This document shows, piece after piece, positions 11,906 through 17,758 of a stretch of DNA of 23,962 bases (position 1 is its first letter; the number at the start of each line of letters is the position of its first letter). Under the pieces are notes generated by a model. It was given only the letters and a program-made list of their open reading frames with translations, was not told the origin of the DNA and made no database searches. This DNA comes from an uncultured Kiloniellales bacterium (lineage in GTDB: Bacteria; Pseudomonadota; Alphaproteobacteria; Kiloniellales; JAKSDN01), in contig CALJXB010000275.1 in NCBI GenBank assembly GCA_937974415.1, positions 1-23,962 of the forward strand, read 5' to 3'. Made by a program: the position numbers and the translations under genes.

Positions 11906-12055
11906 AGGAGCGAGCCTTGGCCTTCCTCGCGGGACACCCCGAGCTGGGATGTAGAAGTTCAAACAGTTTAGCGGAACAGATCAAGTGCTAGAACCGAAAT
12001 GCTGGAATGACCGAAATCAGCTAATCAACCGCCTAACTGACCGCGGTAAGTGAAG

Positions 12056-12300
12056 ACTGCTTTGCGATCAGACAGCCGACGTTCACGTGAGCGAACGGGA
12101 ATGACCGGGTTGGGTCGACTCCAGCCCTTCGTGGCTGTCACGCGATCGAACACTTTTGCGATGCCGGCGAAGGGCAACCTTCGGCCAGAAGTAGCCGTTC
12201 GACGTGGGGACGGCCAAGGTCCGCTTCCAGATCAGAAATGAGCCTTTCGGACAACGCTCCGCAAAGCGCCGATTCTAACCCAAAGGCGACATTCGCTTTG
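12056..12300 (+). repeat. Dispersed intergenic repeat, copy B
   Basis: About 245 bases sharing with copy A the blocks ACTGCTTTGCGATCA, CCGACGTTC, GGGTTGGGTCGACTC, CCAGATCA, CCTTTCGGACAACGCT and AAAGGCGACATTCG, in the same order and orientation. It fills most of the 450-base gap before the COQ10-like gene and has no coding potential. Copies have diverged a lot, so it is old or under weak constraint. Confidence 0.65.
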
Positions 12301-12356
12301 GCCCGTGCTAAGCTTCAATACAATGATCAGGTTTGATTCGAGCACTCATCGCTGTT

Positions 12357-12845
12357 ATGCCATCTCATCGGATCAGCTGCTACACCCCTTACAGGCGGGA
12401 TCAAATTTTTGACCTCGCGGCCGATGTCGAGCGCTATCCGGATTTCCTGCCATGGTGGGCCGCAGCCCGAGTCTGGAAGCGTGAGGGCAACGTCTATTAC
12501 ACGGATCAGGTTATCCACTTCGCCACGGTGCGCAGACGCTTGAAGTCGAAAACGGTCCTTCAACGCCCCGAGCGAATCGATGTGATCTCAAGCGATGGAG
12601 CTGTTCGGAATCTTCATCTGACTTGGCTTTTTAGTTCCCGGCCGAGGAAAGGGTGCCAGGTCTCGTTGACAGTTGACCTGGAACTGCGCTCGCAATTGCT
12701 TCAGAACCTCTTCGCTCATGCCATGATTCGCGCGGTTGGCCCTATCATGTCGGCATTCAAGGCCCGAGCCCACCGACTTTATGATCCCATGTCGTGCGAT
12801 TTCATCACGCCAGGTGAGCCTTCGTCTGGCGACACCATGATCTGA
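12357..12845 (+). CDS. COQ10/RatA-like START-domain (SRPBCC) ubiquinone-binding protein
   Basis: A 162-residue SRPBCC/START-fold protein of the COQ10-RatA family. COQ10 binds ubiquinone and is needed for its proper use in respiration. The hallmark DLAADVERYPDFLPWW (19-34) is near-perfect, as are the central VRRRLKSKTVL, the WLFSSRP-KGCQV stretch (90-102) and the C-terminal AFKARAHRLYD helix (133-143). The ATG at 12357 is the natural family start; a TTG at 12333 in frame is less likely. Compared with typical members the C-terminus is extended by about 19 residues. It lies 156 bases before rquA on the same strand, so a quinone-binding protein directly precedes a quinone-modifying enzyme. Rhodoquinone handling is a reasonable inference but not shown. 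Confidence 0.9.
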   Translation: MPSHRISCYTPYRRDQIFDLAADVERYPDFLPWWAAARVWKREGNVYYTDQVIHFATVRRRLKSKTVLQRPERIDVISSDGAVRNLHLTWLFSSRPRKGCQVSLTVDLELRSQLLQNLFAHAMIRAVGPIMSAFKARAHRLYDPMSCDFITPGEPSSGDTMI

Positions 12846-12891
12846 ACGGCACGCAGGCGAGTCTTCCTGAATCAGCCGACGCTGTGGGGAC

Positions 12892-12940
12892 TTGAGGAGG
12901 ATCAAGGACCCATGACGTTCTTTTCTCTATAAGAAGCTTT
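12892..12940 (+). promoter_or_regulatory. FNR/Anr-type promoter of rquA
   Basis: TTGAG-GAGG-ATCAA at 12892-12905 matches the FNR consensus TTGAT-N4-ATCAA at 9 of 10 positions. A TATAAG -10 box lies at 12928-12933, so transcription should start at about 12940. The box centre is then at -41.5, the exact position for a class II FNR-activated promoter. The predicted 5' leader is about 60 bases. GAGGAGG inside the box also looks like a ribosome site, but only a six-codon frame would use it. Confidence 0.6.
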
Positions 12941-13001
12941 CTTGATGGTGCTGGCGGCGCGAATTGAGCCGCTTAGACGAGACTAACGGGAGCGCACGCC
13001 A

Positions 13002-13781
13002 GTGACTTCGCTCGACGGCACGCATGTATTCGTCGACCAACCAATCGGCCATGGGCCGGCCTCGGACGCGCAACAATCGTCGCAGCGGCGTGATGCGACG
13101 GCCATACCCGCCTATCTGCGCGAGGTCTATGGCTGGGCCTACCTGAACCGGATCAATGCTCTCCTACTCGACCGCGACGCGGTGGTAAACGCTATCCTGT
13201 TGGGCAACAATCGGCGGCTACGTCGCACCCTTCTCTGTGAGATCGAGCCCGGGCAAGAGGTGCTGCATGTAGCCCACGTCTATGGTCGTCTCATACCGGC
13301 ATTGGCAGGACGGATCGGCTGCAGTGGCCGGCTTGATGTCATCGACCTTGTGCCGCTACAGGCGGCGTTGTGCCGGCGCAAGCTACGCGGCTTCCCCCAG
13401 GCGCGTGTCCGGTTCGCAGACGCCGCCCATCCGGGCGATGGGTTGTACAACACCGTCACCTGTTTTTTTCTGCTTCACGAAATTCCCGACGAGCGTAAGC
13501 GCGCCGTCGTCGATGCGCTTTTGGCGCGCGTCGTCCCGGGCGGTAAGGTGGTTTTCGTCGACTACCACAGGCCGGCGCGATGGCATCCGCTCCGTGGCCT
13601 CATGCGAGGCCTCATGAATCGACTCGAGCCCTTTGCAGAAAGCCTCTGGCCGCATGAGATCGTTGAGTTCGCCAGCGCCCCCGGCCCCTACCGCTGGCGG
13701 AAACAGACACTGTTCGGCGGCCTTTATCAAAAGACTGTCGCGTATCATGCACGATCTCAAGCTACTGAAATTTCTGTGTAA
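13002..13781 (+). CDS. rquA: Rhodoquinone biosynthesis methyltransferase-like protein RquA
   Basis: A 259-residue protein of the RquA family, which converts ubiquinone to rhodoquinone using S-adenosylmethionine as the amino donor. Rhodoquinone carries electrons to fumarate under low oxygen. Family blocks in order: AIPAYLREVYGWAYL (34-48), VNAILLGNNRRL (62-73), VLHVAHVYGRL (87-97), FFLLHEIPDE (155-164), GGKVVFVDYHRP (180-191), WHPLRGLM (194-201), LEPFAESLWPHEI (208-220) and FGGLYQK (238-244). The block at 87-97 replaces the GxGxG SAM loop of normal methyltransferases, a known RquA trait. The start is a GTG at 13002 with GGGAG about 9 bases upstream. A likely FNR-controlled promoter precedes it and a COQ10-like gene lies upstream. 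Conserved length and motifs indicate an intact enzyme. Confidence 0.92.
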   Translation: MTSLDGTHVFVDQPIGHGPASDAQQSSQRRDATAIPAYLREVYGWAYLNRINALLLDRDAVVNAILLGNNRRLRRTLLCEIEPGQEVLHVAHVYGRLIPALAGRIGCSGRLDVIDLVPLQAALCRRKLRGFPQARVRFADAAHPGDGLYNTVTCFFLLHEIPDERKRAVVDALLARVVPGGKVVFVDYHRPARWHPLRGLMRGLMNRLEPFAESLWPHEIVEFASAPGPYRWRKQTLFGGLYQKTVAYHARSQATEISV

Positions 13782-13830
13782 TGGGATGTGCAGGTTTCTT
13801 GCCATTCGCAACTCTGAACCCGCATTTCCA

Positions 13831-13857
13831 ATTCGGCGCTAATTTCTACCGCCGAAT
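13831..13857. other. 8-bp perfect inverted repeat downstream of rquA
   Basis: ATTCGGCG (13831-13838) and CGCCGAAT (13850-13857) are perfect complements around an 11-base loop, 50 bases after the rquA stop. There is no T-tract, so it is either a factor-dependent end or an mRNA-protecting hairpin. The rest of the 376-base gap before the CBS gene shows only the FNR palindrome. Confidence 0.45.
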
Positions 13858-14073
13858 CAACGGATGCGGTCGGTTTCGGACCGCTCGGGTGATGACGGCA
13901 AATGTCCCCAATCGGGTATTCGTGCTTTATTCGGAACCTGACTCCAATCCTCCTAACAACCACAAGGTCAGTCCGACTTGGAACAGCAAAAGGCCTCAGA
14001 TCGCCCGCACGTCACAAGTGCGGTTTCGAGATTGCGGAGTTTGGGCCCGCAGGCAGACAGGGAGACAGCTCCC

Positions 14074-14087
14074 TTGATCCAAATCAA
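14074..14087. promoter_or_regulatory. Perfect FNR/FixK-type palindrome upstream of the CBS gene
   Basis: TTGAT-CCAA-ATCAA is a 10/10 match to the FNR consensus. A TATTTA -10-like hexamer follows at 14106-14111, giving a start near 14118 and a box centre at about -38, slightly closer than the ideal -41.5. If that promoter is used, the upstream TTG at 14116 cannot be the translation start and the GTG at 14158 is favoured. Confidence 0.6.
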
Positions 14088-14157
14088 TGCCTTGGTTTTT
14101 AAGGCTATTTAGACGTTGCAGCCAGGTTTTTATGGTGCGTCCAGACTGGGTGAAATC

Positions 14158-14601
14158 GTGATTATCGAAAAGCTGCTTCGAAGCGGGCGAGCCGATGTCC
14201 CGGTCGTCGGGCCTGATGAGACGGTGTTGTCGATCACGCGCCTGTTCGAGAAGAGAAAGAGGGGGCTCGCGGCCGTATGCGATCCGGGCCGGCGGCTGCT
14301 CGGCGTAGTTAGCTTGGGTGACATAGTGCACGCCATCGGGAGTCACCAAGAAAGCGCTCTCAACATGCCGGTGCGCGAGATCATGACCAGCGATCTTGCC
14401 ACCTGCGGGCCGCAGGACAGTGTCGAAGACGCGCTGAAAACAATGACCGCCCTCAGCATTCGGCACCTGCTCGTTGTTGAGAATGGGGCGTTGAAAGGGC
14501 TGGTCAGCAAGCGAGACGCACTCGAACTGCTGTACAACGAGGCGGCCTTGGACTTTGAGCAAATGCGAAATTACGTGTTCAAGACGGGGGGCCGCTACTA
14601 G
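14158..14601 (+). CDS. Two-CBS-domain protein
   Basis: A 147-residue protein made of a tandem pair of CBS domains (about 8-65 and 72-125), which together form a Bateman module that usually binds adenine nucleotides. Visible signatures are DETVLSITRLFEKRKRGLA and GVVSLGDIVHAIG in the first, and DSVEDALKTMTALSIRHLLVV and GLVSKRDAL in the second. The GTG at 14158 is preferred: it gives the normal N-terminus and fits the promoter position; a TTG at 14116 would add 14 residues. The C-terminal tail (LYNEAALDFEQMRNYVF) is also common in stand-alone CBS proteins. A perfect FNR site lies about 70 bases upstream, suggesting expression under low oxygen. The regulated partner is unknown; it may sense energy state (inference). 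Confidence 0.88.
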   Translation: MIIEKLLRSGRADVPVVGPDETVLSITRLFEKRKRGLAAVCDPGRRLLGVVSLGDIVHAIGSHQESALNMPVREIMTSDLATCGPQDSVEDALKTMTALSIRHLLVVENGALKGLVSKRDALELLYNEAALDFEQMRNYVFKTGGRY

Positions 14602-14754
14602 CGGTAAGTGCTACCGAACGGGGCCTGTTCAAGAATCCACCTTCCAGAGGGTGGTCATTGTTGCGCGCGACACCTGAGCACGTTATAGGCCCTTTATTCC
14701 AAGGCCTTCCAATAGTGCCGGATGGCCGCTCATCGGCAGCGGAAGGAGCATGAG

Positions 14755-15696
14755 TTGCCCCCACTGGTTCCTTTGCATGACGTTCCCATGGACCGCCCCG
14801 ATGACCTCGGCAAGGATGAGTTGGCGACTTCCTTTGAGATCTTTCCTCCTCGGGAAAAGACCGCGGAAGATCAGCTTTTGCGGAATATCCGAGGTCTTGA
14901 AGTCCTTAAGCCACGCTTCGTTTCTGTGACCTATGGCGCCGGGGGCGGCACCCGGAAAAATACGCAAGCCATAGCGGCGCGAGTCGCCGCTGAAACCGTG
15001 ATGGCACCGGCGGCGCACCTGACTTGCATCAATGCTTCACGGAAGAAGATCGACGCCGTGGCGCAGGAGTACTGGAATTCGGGCATTAGACACATAGTTG
15101 CGGTGCGGGGTGATCCACCAGACCGGTCGACGGTCTATGAGCCGCATCCCCACGGCTATGCTTATGCCGCCGACTTGGTGGCCGGATTGAAGCGGATTGC
15201 CAATTTCGAGATCAGTGTCGCGGCCTATCCCGAGGTCCATCCAGAAGCATTGAGCGCCTCGCAAGATCTAGAGTCCCTGAAGCGAAAACTTGATGCCGGT
15301 GCAACCCGCGCGATCACTCAGTTCTTCTTCGACCCTGAGGTCTTTCTACGCTTTATTGAGCAAGCGCGAACGGCCGGCATCACCGCGCCCATCGTGGCCG
15401 GAATTATGCCGATCACCGATTTCGAGAGGATCCGCAAATTTTCCCAGAGCTGCGGTGTAACCATGCCAAACAAGTTGGCAGCGCTTTTCGATGGGTCGAA
15501 GCGAGATCCTGCGGCATGCCGCCGCCTGGCTGTCGCGCGTGCAGTGGAGCAATGCCGGCACCTACATGCCCAAGGCCAGCGCGAGTTTCATTTCTACACG
15601 CTAAACGATGCGCACTTAGCCGCAGACATCTGCAATTTGTTCCGCGACTCCTGGCGTAATGGTCGAACGGCGCCTCGCCCGCCTCGAGAGGTGTGA
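14755..15696 (+). CDS. metF: Methylenetetrahydrofolate reductase
   Basis: A 313-residue MetF, the FAD enzyme that reduces 5,10-methylene-THF to 5-methyl-THF for methionine and hence SAM synthesis. Key blocks: TSFEIFPPR with catalytic Glu28, TYGAGGGTR (59-67), AHLTC (87-91), VRGDPP with Asp120, and ITQFFFD with Gln189. The start is a TTG at 14755, chosen because GGAAGGAG (14741-14748) lies 6 bases before it. An ATG at 14722 (11 residues longer) and one at 14788 (11 shorter) have no ribosome site. It follows the CBS gene by 153 bases on the same strand. Its place next to rquA, whose product consumes SAM, may be meaningful. It could be either the only metF or a second copy; this window cannot tell. 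Confidence 0.93.
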   Translation: MPPLVPLHDVPMDRPDDLGKDELATSFEIFPPREKTAEDQLLRNIRGLEVLKPRFVSVTYGAGGGTRKNTQAIAARVAAETVMAPAAHLTCINASRKKIDAVAQEYWNSGIRHIVAVRGDPPDRSTVYEPHPHGYAYAADLVAGLKRIANFEISVAAYPEVHPEALSASQDLESLKRKLDAGATRAITQFFFDPEVFLRFIEQARTAGITAPIVAGIMPITDFERIRKFSQSCGVTMPNKLAALFDGSKRDPAACRRLAVARAVEQCRHLHAQGQREFHFYTLNDAHLAADICNLFRDSWRNGRTAPRPPREV

Positions 15697-15745
15697 TCCG
15701 ATCCGGCCACCGTCGCAATACCCTTATTGTCAGCGCATTCGGGCC

Positions 15746-15766
15746 CATCACGTGATGACCGGTCAT
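15746..15766. promoter_or_regulatory. Two overlapping perfect 12-bp palindromes
   Basis: CATCACGTGATG (15746-15757) and ATGACCGGTCAT (15755-15766) are both perfect and share three bases. They lie 50-70 bases after the metF stop and about 60 bases before an FNR-like site. They look like operator DNA for a dimeric regulator, but I cannot name one. Confidence 0.4.
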
Positions 15767-15822
15767 GGATTAAAACGGAACTTCTGAGCGCTTGGCGAAC
15801 GTCGCCTCTTGAGTACTACAAT

Positions 15823-15836
15823 TTGATTTAGATCAC
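15823..15836. promoter_or_regulatory. FNR-type site between metF and the GGT gene
   Basis: TTGAT-TTAG-ATCAC matches the FNR consensus at 9 of 10 positions. No good -10 box stands at the class II distance on either strand (the plus-strand hexamer at 15859-15864 is TAGGCG), so the target is uncertain. The nearest downstream genes are the short ORF at 15948 and the GGT-family gene at 16169. Confidence 0.45.
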
Positions 15837-15947
15837 CATACTATCCGGCCCGTCGTGGTAGGCGTTTTTCTTTTCTTTGGGTTCGGCAATTGCGGATCGG
15901 AGATTCGCGATTGCTTGAGTGGTAGGGAGTACTGACTGGTCGCGACG

Positions 15948-16172
15948 TTGACCATTGAGCCTGTGCTCGACTGGAATATGGTTGAAACTTTGATCCGCGC
16001 AAATGCCGTTCAAGTCGATCCTGAGACGAGCCGTCAGGACGCGCGATTGTGTATGTTCGCGTCCGACCTCGGCTGCCGGATGGCGGTGGCTTACGACTCA
16101 CTCGTAGGCATCGTCACCAAACATTATTCCTTGAGCAAAGCAAACGAAGCGTTTGCGTGCCAGACGAAATGA
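15948..16172 (+). CDS. Short ORF coupled to the GGT-family gene, function unknown
   Basis: A 74-codon frame with a TTG start at 15948, or 64 codons from an ATG at 15978. Its stop codon overlaps the start of the GGT-family gene in an ATGA junction, the usual sign of translational coupling. The sequence is not recognised: no signal peptide, membrane segment or clear motif is visible, and the end (GIVTKHYSLSKANEAF) faintly resembles the tail of zinc-type alcohol dehydrogenases. Neither start has a good ribosome site. It may be a small coupled protein, a decayed gene end, or merely an open leader. Confidence 0.3.
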   Translation: MTIEPVLDWNMVETLIRANAVQVDPETSRQDARLCMFASDLGCRMAVAYDSLVGIVTKHYSLSKANEAFACQTK

Positions 16173-17758
16173 CCCGTCTCGCCATCGCATCGAGCTCGCA
16201 GATCGCGGCGGACGCAGGCGCCGCGATGGCAGAGGCCGGCGGTAATGCTGTTGATGCGGGGATCGCTGCGAGCCTGGTTCAGTTGGTAACGGAGCCCGGC
16301 GTCGTGTCGCTCGGGGCCGGCGCTATCGTTGTCATCTGGCCACCGGGCGAGCATCCGGTAATGATCGATGGTACCTCGGAGATGCCGGGCCGCAACGTGC
16401 CGGCCGAACGGCTGGGCCGTGGCGGATTAGATGTGATGCTGGCCTACGGCGGCGGCACGCCCACGACGGTCGGTTACCCGTCGGTCGCCACGCCCGGCGC
16501 GCTCGCTGGTTACGCCTTCGCTGCCCGGCAGTACGGCAGCATAACGTGGAAGGGCCTTGTGGAACCGGCTTATTTGCATGCAAGAGATGGGTTTCCGCTG
16601 CCTCCAGCGTCGCAACGTTACATCGACCATACTCACCCAGGCATATTCGGTTGGAACCCCACTGCTTTGCGTCCTCTACAGGATAAGCACGGGGTGATGA
16701 AGCGTGCCGGAGAGATGATCTACATAGAGGGCCTCAGTGACAGCCTCGCAACCATCGCAGAGCAAGGCGTAGAAGCGTTCTACCGGGGCGATATCGCGCG
16801 GCTGATTGCCCGCGACATGGAAGCCAACGATGGACTATTGGGCCAAGCAGATCTTGAGGCTTACCGTCCCCGCATCTTACCAGCACTCGAAGTGACGTTG
16901 GATGAATGGCATCTGGCGACAGCCTCTGTGCCGAGCGTTGGGGGCGCCGTTTTGGCAGCCATGCTGTTGCTGGTGCGCGGCCTCGAACACAGCGCCTGGA
17001 CGGCGCAGATGGTGGCCCATCTGATCGACGTACAGACTCACGTTATGCGGTTTCGCAGGCGATGCTTGGATACATCGGACGAACTCGGACGCGACGTAGA
17101 GGAATTGTTAGATCTCGCGAACAGAAGACCATCGGCGCTCACCTCGCCATCCACGGTGCACACTTCCGTAGTGGACGCTGATGGACTTGCCTGCGCCATT
17201 ACCGCCTCCGCGGGCTACGGTTCCGGCGTTATGCCGCCTGGGACGGGCATTTGGATGAACAACACCCTCGGCGAGGTCGAGCTCAACAAGCGAGGGTTCC
17301 ACGCGCTGCGCCCCGGCACACGAATTCCCTCCAACATGGCACCAACCACCGGTCGTAGCCCTGATGGCTCTGTGCTTTCCATAGGATCGCCGGGCGCAGA
17401 TCGCATCACCACTGCGATTCTCCAGACTGTGACGAATTTCGTGCATCTCGACATGCCACTTCAAGATGCGGTGAATCACCCCCGCCTTCATGTCGAGTGG
17501 CCGCGGGACGGTGAGTGCTGCGTGGCCTATGAACCGGGCATGCCGGTGGACCAACTGGATGTACCGCAACGCCGATTCGACGGGCTGGACATGTTTTTCG
17601 GCGGGGTGAGCGCCGTACGCTTCGCACCTCCCGACCGCTTCGAGATGGCAGCGGATATCCGTCGAACCGGGGGCACGGCGCTCAGCCCACACCGCAGGAA
17701 CCGAGGATTGGTCGGCCCGCGGCAGGATTCACGACGCACATCGCCTTCGGTGCGGTAA
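16169..17758 (+). CDS. Gamma-glutamyltransferase-family protein (Ntn hydrolase)
   Basis: A 529-residue self-processing Ntn hydrolase of the GGT family. GGTs cleave gamma-glutamyl bonds such as that of glutathione; relatives act as acylases. The N-terminal AEAGGNAVDAGIAASLV block is typical. The processing site is in PSTVHTSVVDADG, with Thr329 as the expected new N-terminus and nucleophile. Later blocks are GSGVMPPGTGIWMNN (351-365), PSNMAPT (387-393) and GSPGADRI (406-413). The arginine that grips the glutamyl carboxylate in E. coli GGT (motif GREtAP) is missing: the site reads GTSEMP (68-73), so the substrate may not be gamma-glutamyl. No signal peptide is seen, so it is probably cytoplasmic. 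The start at 16169 fits the family although the ribosome site is weak. Confidence 0.88.
   Translation: MTRLAIASSSQIAADAGAAMAEAGGNAVDAGIAASLVQLVTEPGVVSLGAGAIVVIWPPGEHPVMIDGTSEMPGRNVPAERLGRGGLDVMLAYGGGTPTTVGYPSVATPGALAGYAFAARQYGSITWKGLVEPAYLHARDGFPLPPASQRYIDHTHPGIFGWNPTALRPLQDKHGVMKRAGEMIYIEGLSDSLATIAEQGVEAFYRGDIARLIARDMEANDGLLGQADLEAYRPRILPALEVTLDEWHLATASVPSVGGAVLAAMLLLVRGLEHSAWTAQMVAHLIDVQTHVMRFRRRCLDTSDELGRDVEELLDLANRRPSALTSPSTVHTSVVDADGLACAITASAGYGSGVMPPGTGIWMNNTLGEVELNKRGFHALRPGTRIPSNMAPTTGRSPDGSVLSIGSPGADRITTAILQTVTNFVHLDMPLQDAVNHPRLHVEWPRDGECCVAYEPGMPVDQLDVPQRRFDGLDMFFGGVSAVRFAPPDRFEMAADIRRTGGTALSPHRRNRGLVGPRQDSRRTSPSVR

Follow-up and report, generated by a model that had tools for sequence, protein, structure and literature searches.

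Rhodoquinone (RQ) is an electron carrier for low-oxygen life, and fumarate reductase, with its frdA-type flavoprotein, is one of its users. Cells that contain both ubiquinone (UQ) and RQ face the question of matching each quinone to its proper enzyme. Among lipid-binding accessories there is also UbiT, from a family different from that of the protein described here, COQ10-R.

Among the described systems, the START-domain UQ chaperone COQ10/RatA (PasT; CC1736, PDB 1t17) shares with COQ10-R the PF03364 domain, the helix-grip fold, the length and the core residues, whereas COQ10-R differs by its own clade, its linkage to rquA, its coexistence with a housekeeping copy (11 classified linked genomes), polar residues at positions 44, 46, 48, 63 and 75 and the lack of Cys31. 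CoQ and late quinone intermediates are ligands of known COQ10s, as stated in excerpts of PMC11541779, and excerpts of PMC9814641 state that RquA alone suffices for RQ in E. coli and in vitro. The rquA loci with fumarate reductase or complex II genes (Stairs et al. 2018) resemble ours in that rquA stands beside genes of the same quinone branch, the frdA-type cluster being the commonest neighbour here (27/88 loci). In its main text, this survey reports no proximity of rquA to candidate enzymes of quinone biosynthesis or to other hypothetical proteins, names respiration-associated functions, including ubiquinone biosynthesis, within 15 genes of rquA, and does not mention COQ10 (PMC5953543); in contrast, COQ10-R lies beside rquA here. 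The O2-independent UQ pathway ubiTUV is similar in having quinone genes with predicted FNR sites, and neither 'COQ10' nor 'neighbor' occurs in the main text of that paper (PMC11707229). The text of the R. rubrum candidate-gene paper contains no COQ10, FNR or START domain (PMC6529003). FNR/FixK-controlled CBS-domain genes, for their part, recall the CBS-pair gene of our locus, which sits behind a perfect box but comes after rquA; excerpts of PMC6515984 list CBS-domain proteins with those that increase in Bradyrhizobium diazoefficiens under microoxia. Among the matches listed for open-licence PMC papers, none reported a COQ10/RatA/START-type gene beside rquA, and the sole match for rquA with coenzyme Q-binding was a reference-list entry.

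The window is the whole stretch of 23,962 nt that was analysed; handles beginning with L and G denote loci and genomes of the comparison sets, and FNR/FixK boxes follow the pattern TTGAT-N4-ATCAA. Profile scores confirm the gene set proposed by the initial annotation (COQ10-like, rquA, CBS pair and metF, all on the plus strand), and its three FNR-type sites were found again, one perfect and two with one mismatch:

12357-12845, plus strand: COQ10-R, a COQ10/START-domain paralogue tied to rquA (PF03364, 76.4 bits, cut-off 23.4)
12846-13001, plus strand: gap of 156 bp between COQ10-R and rquA, with 1 difference from L038
12892-12905, no strand: FNR-type box TTGAGGAGGATCAA, 1 mismatch, before rquA
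13002-13781, plus strand: rquA, predicted rhodoquinone biosynthesis protein (NCBIfam equivalog NF038261, 275.2 bits, cut-off 175)
14074-14087, no strand: perfect FNR-type box TTGATCCAAATCAA, 70 nt ahead of the CBS start chosen here
14158-14601, plus strand: CBS-pair protein, 147 aa (PF00571, 82.9 bits); the GTG start at 14158 is our choice in a frame open from 14116
14722-15696, plus strand: metF (TIGR00676, 322.7 bits, cut-off 293.7)
15823-15836, no strand: FNR-type box TTGATTTAGATCAC with 1 mismatch, preceding a 74-aa ORF and a gamma-glutamyltranspeptidase gene

The order COQ10-rquA-CBS-start of metF was found again in L038, a near-copy (96.8% identity over window positions 12057-15061; 96.7% for COQ10-R and 98.8% for rquA) whose block is flanked by two N gaps, in which metF is cut and whose scaffold is labelled Betaproteobacteria. 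Note that the composition of the window contig matches its own bin (69% complete) poorly, and that the contig may be misbinned. Terminator and promoter patterns in 12000-16300 showed no excess over shuffles, the window had no Rfam match at gathering scores, and RNA folds of four gaps gave z values of -0.99, -2.05, 1.34 and 1.34, the value of -2.05 belonging to 13776-13900. A 98-aa frame (13781-14077) without Pfam match was taken as non-coding. A search for rquA on plasmids (tblastn of RquA, E<=1e-20, 72,556 records) returned 0 matches.

The initial annotation had seen a COQ10-type gene tied to rquA, and this is upheld by a separate subfamily, a recurrent adjacency and a housekeeping COQ10 classified elsewhere in 11 of the 15 linked genomes, including Phaeovibrio sulfidiphilus DSM 23193 and Roseospirillum parvum 930I. 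Indeed, COQ10-R is split from housekeeping COQ10/RatA by a 100/100 branch in a tree of 140 columns with long branches, and its branch reaches an SH-aLRT of 99 in a 138-row tree from which the weak COQ10 candidates L274-L276 were left out. The profile difference (R minus housekeeping) is at least +29 bits for COQ10-R (+67 in the window) and at most -32 for housekeeping proteins, and members not used to build the R profile (L038, L185, L218, L220, L221, L270, G284 and G461) score +30 to +87. All copies scoring at least +29 in the main profile comparison come from rquA-positive genomes, as do the training sequences of the R profile, and second copies with an intermediate score (+2 to +17) occur in four rquA-negative genomes (G004, G020, G045 and G049). 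The window COQ10-R is thus not a housekeeping COQ10/RatA orthologue, given its separate clade and the absence of the housekeeping residues; it also remains below the E. coli RatA equivalog PRK10724 (56 bits, cut-off 258).

Five mostly hydrophobic positions of housekeeping COQ10 are polar in COQ10-R, namely Y44 (27/29 rows), T46 (25/29), Q48 (29/29), T63 (29/29) and S75 (25/29), compared to mostly I/V/L, A, L/I/M, V/N and Y/L in 95 housekeeping rows. The housekeeping Cys31 (93/95 rows) is lost in COQ10-R, and the window protein carries W31, T46, Q48, T63 and S75. The AlphaFold2 model of COQ10-R has the helix-grip (START) fold (pLDDT 91), with Foldseek matches to 1t17/CC1736 (query TM 0.80) and 2d4r (query TM 0.88) and, among the top matches, polyketide aromatase/cyclases of the same fold. 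The five polar residues would face inward and line the cavity.

Of 109 distinct RquA rows, 15 have COQ10-R less than 0.5 kb from rquA, measured between the matched parts; rows or pieces shorter than 180 aa were dropped before the count and the tree. The linked cases show two geometries (12 same-strand upstream and 3 tail-to-tail), and two further loci have COQ10-R at 1.9 and 3.8 kb from rquA. Without the near-copy L038, 14/108 rows are linked compared to ~0.2 by chance, a figure that relies on assumed neighbour, copy and gene numbers. Rows without a COQ10-R label amount to 78/109, by a handle search that covered the loci other than L056. In addition, frdA-type flavoprotein genes occur in 6 of 12 linked rquA loci and 27 of 88 loci overall, a count that leaves out three linked cases of the class sample and relatives and in which cluster identity was Pfam-checked for L042 and L046. 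The recurrence beside rquA in several unrelated bacteria suggests a dedicated rhodoquinone carrier.

In the class sample (385 genomes, the window's included), three of the best 30 loci are COQ10-R and all three adjoin rquA; beside the window, they lie in G284 and G461, and the other 27 score at most -46. With these best 30 loci classified, and G197 (rquA-negative, two matches) left out, COQ10-R is present in 3/25 rquA-positive versus 0/360 rquA-negative genomes (p = 2e-4), or 2/24 versus 0/360 without the window (p = 0.004). Among 98 relatives, the corresponding values are 4/11 versus 0/87 (p = 9e-5) and, without the window, 3/10 versus 0/87 (p = 8e-4); they become 4/11 versus 4/87 (p = 0.005) and 3/10 versus 4/87 (p = 0.02) when intermediate copies are counted in, with single copies inspected in 36 genomes and most rquA-negative single copies unclassified. 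Two of the four positive relatives (G002 and G006) belong to one genus and carry COQ10-R away from rquA, and in 13 genomes with COQ10-R no rquA was found in the surrounding stretch (1.5-8 kb on each side, less at contig ends). COQ10-R is not obligatory for rquA: it was found in 28 of 80 rquA-positive genomes searched by handle, and 52 were without it.

Judged from sequence comparison, COQ10-R and rquA probably form a meaningful pair, in which a quinone chaperone would be specialised for RQ or feed RquA. RquA would convert membrane UQ into RQ, and COQ10-R would be a soluble START-domain quinone carrier, an offshoot of housekeeping COQ10/RatA with a cavity re-tuned to RQ or the RquA step. It might present UQ to membrane-bound RquA, but our first choice is that it would take up RQ(H2) and pass it on to enzymes that use RQ (fumarate reductase, for example), RQ being thereby kept apart from the UQ-specific COQ10; the ligand, the direction of transfer and a low-oxygen induction of rquA in the source organism are all presumed here. 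Tentatively, and as a possible rather than a probable reading, COQ10-R may be a second COQ10 that serves as an RQ-specific lipid chaperone, with a cavity rebuilt for the amino-substituted ring; UQ and RQ, carried on different proteins, would then form two benzoquinone pools of different potential in one membrane. For the question of UQ/RQ sorting, a COQ10 paralogue that is linked to rquA and altered in its cavity offers a concrete protein with named residues and cultivable hosts (Roseospirillum parvum and Phaeovibrio sulfidiphilus). If true, COQ10-R would count as an accessory protein in the rquA pathway and might help to produce rhodoquinone in engineered cells.

The same recurrent neighbourhood and the polar residues thought to line the cavity would also fit a COQ10-R that, instead of carrying the product, takes a direct part in RquA catalysis, by presenting UQ or by contributing polar groups or a route for an oxidant, a reading to which the aromatase/cyclase matches and the O2 requirement of RquA in vitro, with another oxidant presumed in vivo (excerpts of PMC9814641), lend weight. 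However, RquA functions without COQ10-R in E. coli and in vitro (same excerpts) and most rquA-positive genomes searched lack the paralogue, and we regard this direct part as unlikely. Rather improbable, too, is a generic extra carrier for anaerobic or low-potential quinones that has rquA merely as its most frequent neighbour: weak or intermediate R-type copies do adjoin UbiA-family prenyltransferases, MenA-like but below MenA cut-offs (L218, L224), a related copy lies one gene from UbiE (L187) and four intermediate copies sit in rquA-negative genomes, yet all three COQ10-R of the class sample (best 30 loci) are rquA-linked and the copies at +29 or more in the main profile comparison all come from rquA-positive genomes. 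Finally, the adjacency could be a chance neighbourhood that came from one ancestor and was passed on by horizontal transfer, the two genes having no functional connection. Alphaproteobacteria share a single geometry, with COQ10-R upstream of rquA on the same strand, and the 'linked' label is clustered on the RquA tree (10 changes compared to a shuffled mean of 14.3, with 0/500 shuffles as low), where starred branches force only 4 of the changes. This explanation is nevertheless very unlikely, since Competibacteraceae have a different geometry, two loci have the genes 2-4 kb apart, the adjacency is kept though linked proteins are only 30-55% identical to those of the window, and the linked members are not one recent clade in both trees.

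The preferred pairing of COQ10-R with rquA does not extend to the four genes as a whole. According to the initial annotation, COQ10-like, rquA, CBS and metF would form one compact oxygen-controlled rhodoquinone unit, with MetF feeding SAM to RquA and CBS sensing the energy state. Its proposed comparison of rquA neighbourhoods held for the COQ10-like gene (15/109 RquA rows) and failed for the other two, as a small CBS gene or metF occurs near rquA only in the window and L038 among 95 rquA loci of at least 6 kb (overlapping pieces of one genome counted apart); a four-gene operon was rejected. The single strand, the three boxes, the order kept in L038 with 1 difference in the 156-bp gap and a MetF that is not of the relatives' ArsR-metF-metH type speak for one unit. 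Against it stand, besides the neighbourhood count, the gaps between successive genes (156 bp for COQ10-R/rquA, 376 bp for rquA/CBS and 120 bp for CBS/metF), the absence of a box just upstream of COQ10-R and the boxes of their own before rquA and before CBS, which suggest separate promoters, and we consider one unit under one oxygen signal highly unlikely.

The predicted FNR-type boxes before CBS (perfect) and before rquA (1 mismatch) are credible. TATAAG (12928-12933) follows TTGAGGAGGATCAA after 22 intervening nt, a spacing that would be class-II-like. Across the window there are 6 sites with no more than one mismatch versus 0.42 expected in shuffles (0/100 shuffles reach 6), and three of the six lie outside the studied locus (5767, 10450 and 21161). 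Base composition by itself would yield ~0.0003-0.001 perfect sites per 3.5 kb, and the bin contains 10 perfect sites versus 0 for the reversed-pattern control. Over the 400 bp that precede COQ10-R, the closest FNR-type match shows 2-5 mismatches in 11 linked loci (3 in the window), L038 and the 3 tail-to-tail loci being left out. Within 700 bp upstream of rquA, boxes with at most one mismatch were found in 10 of 78 loci (window and near-copy L038 included, L043 dropped for its short upstream region) versus 3.5 sites expected, so that such a box is no general rquA feature, and general FNR control of rquA was rejected.

CBS and metF look incidental to the COQ10-R/rquA pair. With its perfect box upstream, the CBS gene would be a low-oxygen gene of a type already described in other systems. 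Its protein belongs to a set of 32 at E<=1e-15 (query counted in), and in the bin a second CBS-pair gene (L346) and a ccoN likewise lie behind a perfect FNR-type box. As for metF, it is probably a chance or lineage-specific neighbour of rquA. The window MetF falls outside the relatives' housekeeping ArsR-metF-metH type, with a separate 12-row clade (100/100) in a tree built from 12 relatives and 19 of 120 listed database proteins. In the genus mate G001, metF is flanked by an ArsR-type methyltransferase gene on one side and by a gene with a homocysteine S-methyltransferase domain on the other.

Across rquA loci, a COQ10-like gene was repeatedly found beside rquA, and in the window this pair belongs to a run of genes on one strand:

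12357-12845, + strand, COQ10-like gene
13002-13781, + strand, rquA (NF038261, 275 bits, cut-off 175)
ending at 14601, + strand, CBS-pair gene
14722-15696, + strand, metF
after a 74-aa frame downstream of metF, + strand, gamma-glutamyltranspeptidase gene

The 74-aa frame (15948-16172, +), in the gap between metF and the gamma-glutamyltranspeptidase gene and downstream of the third FNR-type box, shows a weak single-CBS-domain resemblance (PF00571, E 0.087) and overlaps the likely start of the next gene. Window positions 12057-15061 recur at 96.8% identity in L038, a locus of CP070775, where the block is flanked by two N gaps (L038 4340-4439 and 8062-8161). CP070775 is named 'Betaproteobacteria bacterium bin200 chromosome' and seems to be a scaffold joined from different organisms; despite this apparently composite nature, the gene order of the block is seen twice. 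Identity between the two copies is 88.8% in the upstream flank, 96.7% in the COQ10-like gene and 98.8% in rquA, the gap between both genes is 99.4% identical (1 difference in 156), and the two FNR-type boxes common to both copies are unchanged.

Phylogenetic analysis set the copy adjoining rquA, together with its relatives (COQ10-R), apart from housekeeping COQ10/RatA. In a tree of 95 proteins, a 100/100 branch placed 27 rows on the COQ10-R side, 4 from genomes without rquA and 23 from genomes with it, the latter comprising 13 linked copies (i.e., less than 0.5 kb from rquA), 2 near copies, 5 unlinked second copies and 3 rows initially labelled housekeeping (G002, G006 and the third copy of G115). 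A 138-row tree built with a quick method recovered a COQ10-R set of 35 rows (SH-aLRT 99), 31 of which came from rquA-bearing genomes. Moreover, gammaproteobacterial COQ10-R (Competibacteraceae, a Chromatiales MAG and a Lucinoma symbiont) grouped with the alphaproteobacterial COQ10-R and not with the housekeeping copies of their own genomes. The difference between two profiles also separated the sets (COQ10-R at least +29, housekeeping at most -32 bits, the housekeeping rows having belonged to the training set of their own profile), and five second copies were intermediate at +2 to +17 (those of G004, G020, G045 and G049, all without rquA, plus one of G117). A PF03364 whole-genome search of the first linked set found a second copy elsewhere in each genome with a linked copy, higher-scoring in all but G098.

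By the profile criterion, COQ10-R occurs in 28 of the 80 rquA-bearing genomes searched (82 handles less two duplicates, recognised by their identical coordinates) and is absent from 52. With G284 and G461 included, 30 genomes carry COQ10-R: 15 at less than 0.5 kb from rquA (among them the window's bin and the scaffold of L038), 2 within 4 kb and 13 without rquA in the fetched stretch. In an even draw of 385 genomes from the class, window's bin included, rquA was found in 25 (E<=1e-40). These genomes were scored with the COQ10-R profile, with at most 10 candidates per genome, and the best 30 loci were classified: 27 were not COQ10-R (-46 or less), and the other three (window, G284 and G461) have COQ10-R directly upstream of rquA, the matched parts lying 318, 183 and 319 bp apart. 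Among these best 30 loci, COQ10-R thus counts 3/25 genomes with rquA versus 0/360 without (p 2e-4), G197 (no rquA, two matches) being left out, and 2/24 versus 0/360 without the window (p 0.004). Among 98 relatives, bin included, strong COQ10-R was found in 4/11 genomes with rquA versus 0/87 without, and in 3/10 of the former when the window is removed (p 8e-4); counting intermediate copies gives 4/11 versus 4/87 (p 0.005), or 3/10 versus 4/87 without the window (p 0.02), the single copies of most relatives lacking rquA standing outside the one-by-one classification behind these counts.

In Alphaproteobacteria, COQ10-R lies upstream of rquA on the same strand at 12 loci (gaps of 113-439 bp between matched parts), and in three Competibacteraceae the two genes are tail-to-tail (28-72 bp). 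On a 109-row RquA tree, the linked label needs 10 changes, of which the starred branches force 4, versus a mean of 14.3 when shuffled (0/500 shuffles as low as 10); the label is clustered, yet not limited to one recent clade. Two genomes carry two divergent rquA copies each (L168/L169 in G002, L170/L171 in G005), at separate places in the RquA tree.

The initial annotation had joined CBS and metF to the same possible unit, an extension that the wider set of rquA loci does not support. In a scan of 145 rquA loci with profiles built from the proteins' own relatives, a small CBS gene or metF lay near rquA only in the window, its pieces and L038; 95 of these loci span at least 6 kb, some of them overlapping pieces of one genome; at L040 and L108, the CBS match falls inside frames of about 640 aa. 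tblastn agreed (88 loci besides the window pieces and 14 more, 12 of them with rquA). The best CBS match across 57 related genomes has 41% identity, and the database relatives of the protein comprise one at 86% (on a 560-base contig) and others at 57% or less. In the MetF tree, the window protein falls into a group with 11 database sequences, split at 100/100 from the proteins of 12 relatives, and in the genus mate G001 metF is flanked by genes for an ArsR-type methyltransferase and for a homocysteine S-methyltransferase-domain protein. The window's metF is the only strong one (301 bits; next 121) in its incomplete bin (2.89 Mb, 69%-complete), of which the window is one whole contig; the refuting case named in the initial annotation, a lone housekeeping metF, may or may not apply here.

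This contig may be misbinned or an island: its GC is 58.6% versus 60-71% in 31 other readable bin contigs or stretches fetched, and its tetranucleotide correlation with the bin is 0.40-0.60 in 6-kb pieces and 0.71 as a whole, versus 0.49-0.84 (leave-one-out) for 15 others of at least 6 kb. Claims on other copies in 'its' genome are therefore conditional, and the COQ10-R/rquA association is independent of the bin. As for the second COQ10 gene sought, a separate housekeeping copy was classified in 11 of the 15 linked genomes; G284 and G461 each hold a second COQ10-type match of unassigned class, and the window's bin and the L038 scaffold are unsafe for this count.

The three FNR-type sites proposed near rquA are present, and perfect boxes elsewhere in the bin have the following neighbours:

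12892, FNR-type box, one mismatch
14074, FNR-type box, perfect
15823, FNR-type box, one mismatch
elsewhere in the bin, ccoN gene near a perfect box (TIGR00780, 769 bits)
elsewhere in the bin, Crp/Fnr-family regulator gene near a perfect box (HTH_Crp_2, 54 bits; FixK model far below cut-off)
L346 (G000:C457, in the window's bin), second CBS-pair gene and divergent Hsp20 gene flanking a perfect box

The window holds 6 sites of this kind versus 0.42 expected, and the whole bin has 10 copies of the perfect motif, versus 0 when the motif is read backwards. Three of the nine other perfect-box places adjoin genes fitting low oxygen, and no low-oxygen-type gene was seen near the remaining six. In Bradyrhizobium, CBS-domain proteins are reported among those up under microoxia (PMC6515984). 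Before rquA, a 22-nt spacer separates the box from TATAAG, a spacing that would fit class-II activation. Within 700 bp upstream of rquA, a site with at most one mismatch was found at 10/78 loci, window and L038 included (3.5 sites expected). From these scans, FNR-mediated oxygen control of rquA is plausible in this organism and is no general feature of rquA loci. The single oxygen signal proposed for all four genes is not supported. At the 11 linked loci scanned, the window among them, the closest FNR-type match in the 400 bp ahead of COQ10-R carries 2 to 5 mismatches (3 in the window).

The predicted model of the window COQ10-R adopts a helix-grip fold (pLDDT 91), like that of CC1736 (1t17) and TTHA0849 (2d4r). 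Coq10 proteins, which bind CoQ in a tunnel of this fold, are described as CoQ chaperones (PMC11541779), and E. coli RatA/PasT, originally named a toxin, was later assigned such a role (PMC11988751). In strand 43-52 of the housekeeping proteins, even positions form the hydrophobic phase (mean hydropathy 3.2, 1.5, 3.6 and 4.1 at 44, 46, 48 and 50, versus 0.2, 0.7, -2.6 and 1.2 at 43, 45, 47 and 49). COQ10-R carries Y, T and Q at 44, 46 and 48, plus T63 and S75, and position 85 goes from N/G to mostly I/L; because of this phase, the changed residues would face the cavity. Such a moved polar patch in the quinone cavity, beside RquA, the methoxy-to-amino enzyme, suggests that COQ10-R could recognise rhodoquinone, or ubiquinone en route into RquA. 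RquA is reported to suffice by itself both in E. coli and in vitro (PMC9814641), which would give COQ10-R an accessory role; the 52 of 80 rquA-bearing genomes that lack it fit this view.

The frdA-type neighbours favour a role of COQ10-R in handing quinone to fumarate reductase: a gene of this cluster is found in 6/12 linked loci and 27/88 loci overall, directly after rquA on the same strand at L042 and L046 (where Pfam confirms a fumarate-reductase/succinate-dehydrogenase flavoprotein) and about 1.5 kb from COQ10-R in G284. Stairs et al. 2018 (PMC5953543) found respiratory complexes and respiration-associated genes in the surroundings of rquA, no more than 15 genes away, and state that candidate quinone biosynthesis enzymes and other hypothetical proteins were not near it. 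Among the matches listed from the open-licence PMC literature, no earlier report ties a COQ10-type gene to rquA.

Away from rquA, COQ10-like copies adjoin UbiA-family, MenA-like prenyltransferase genes in G002 and G020, and one lies a single gene from UbiE in G117. These second copies (L218, L224 and L187, respectively) are of weak or intermediate R type and are possibly other quinone-specific carriers. In G045 and G049, which lack rquA, the second copies (L226 and L227) adjoin radical-SAM genes, the neighbour at L227 having been read by eye.
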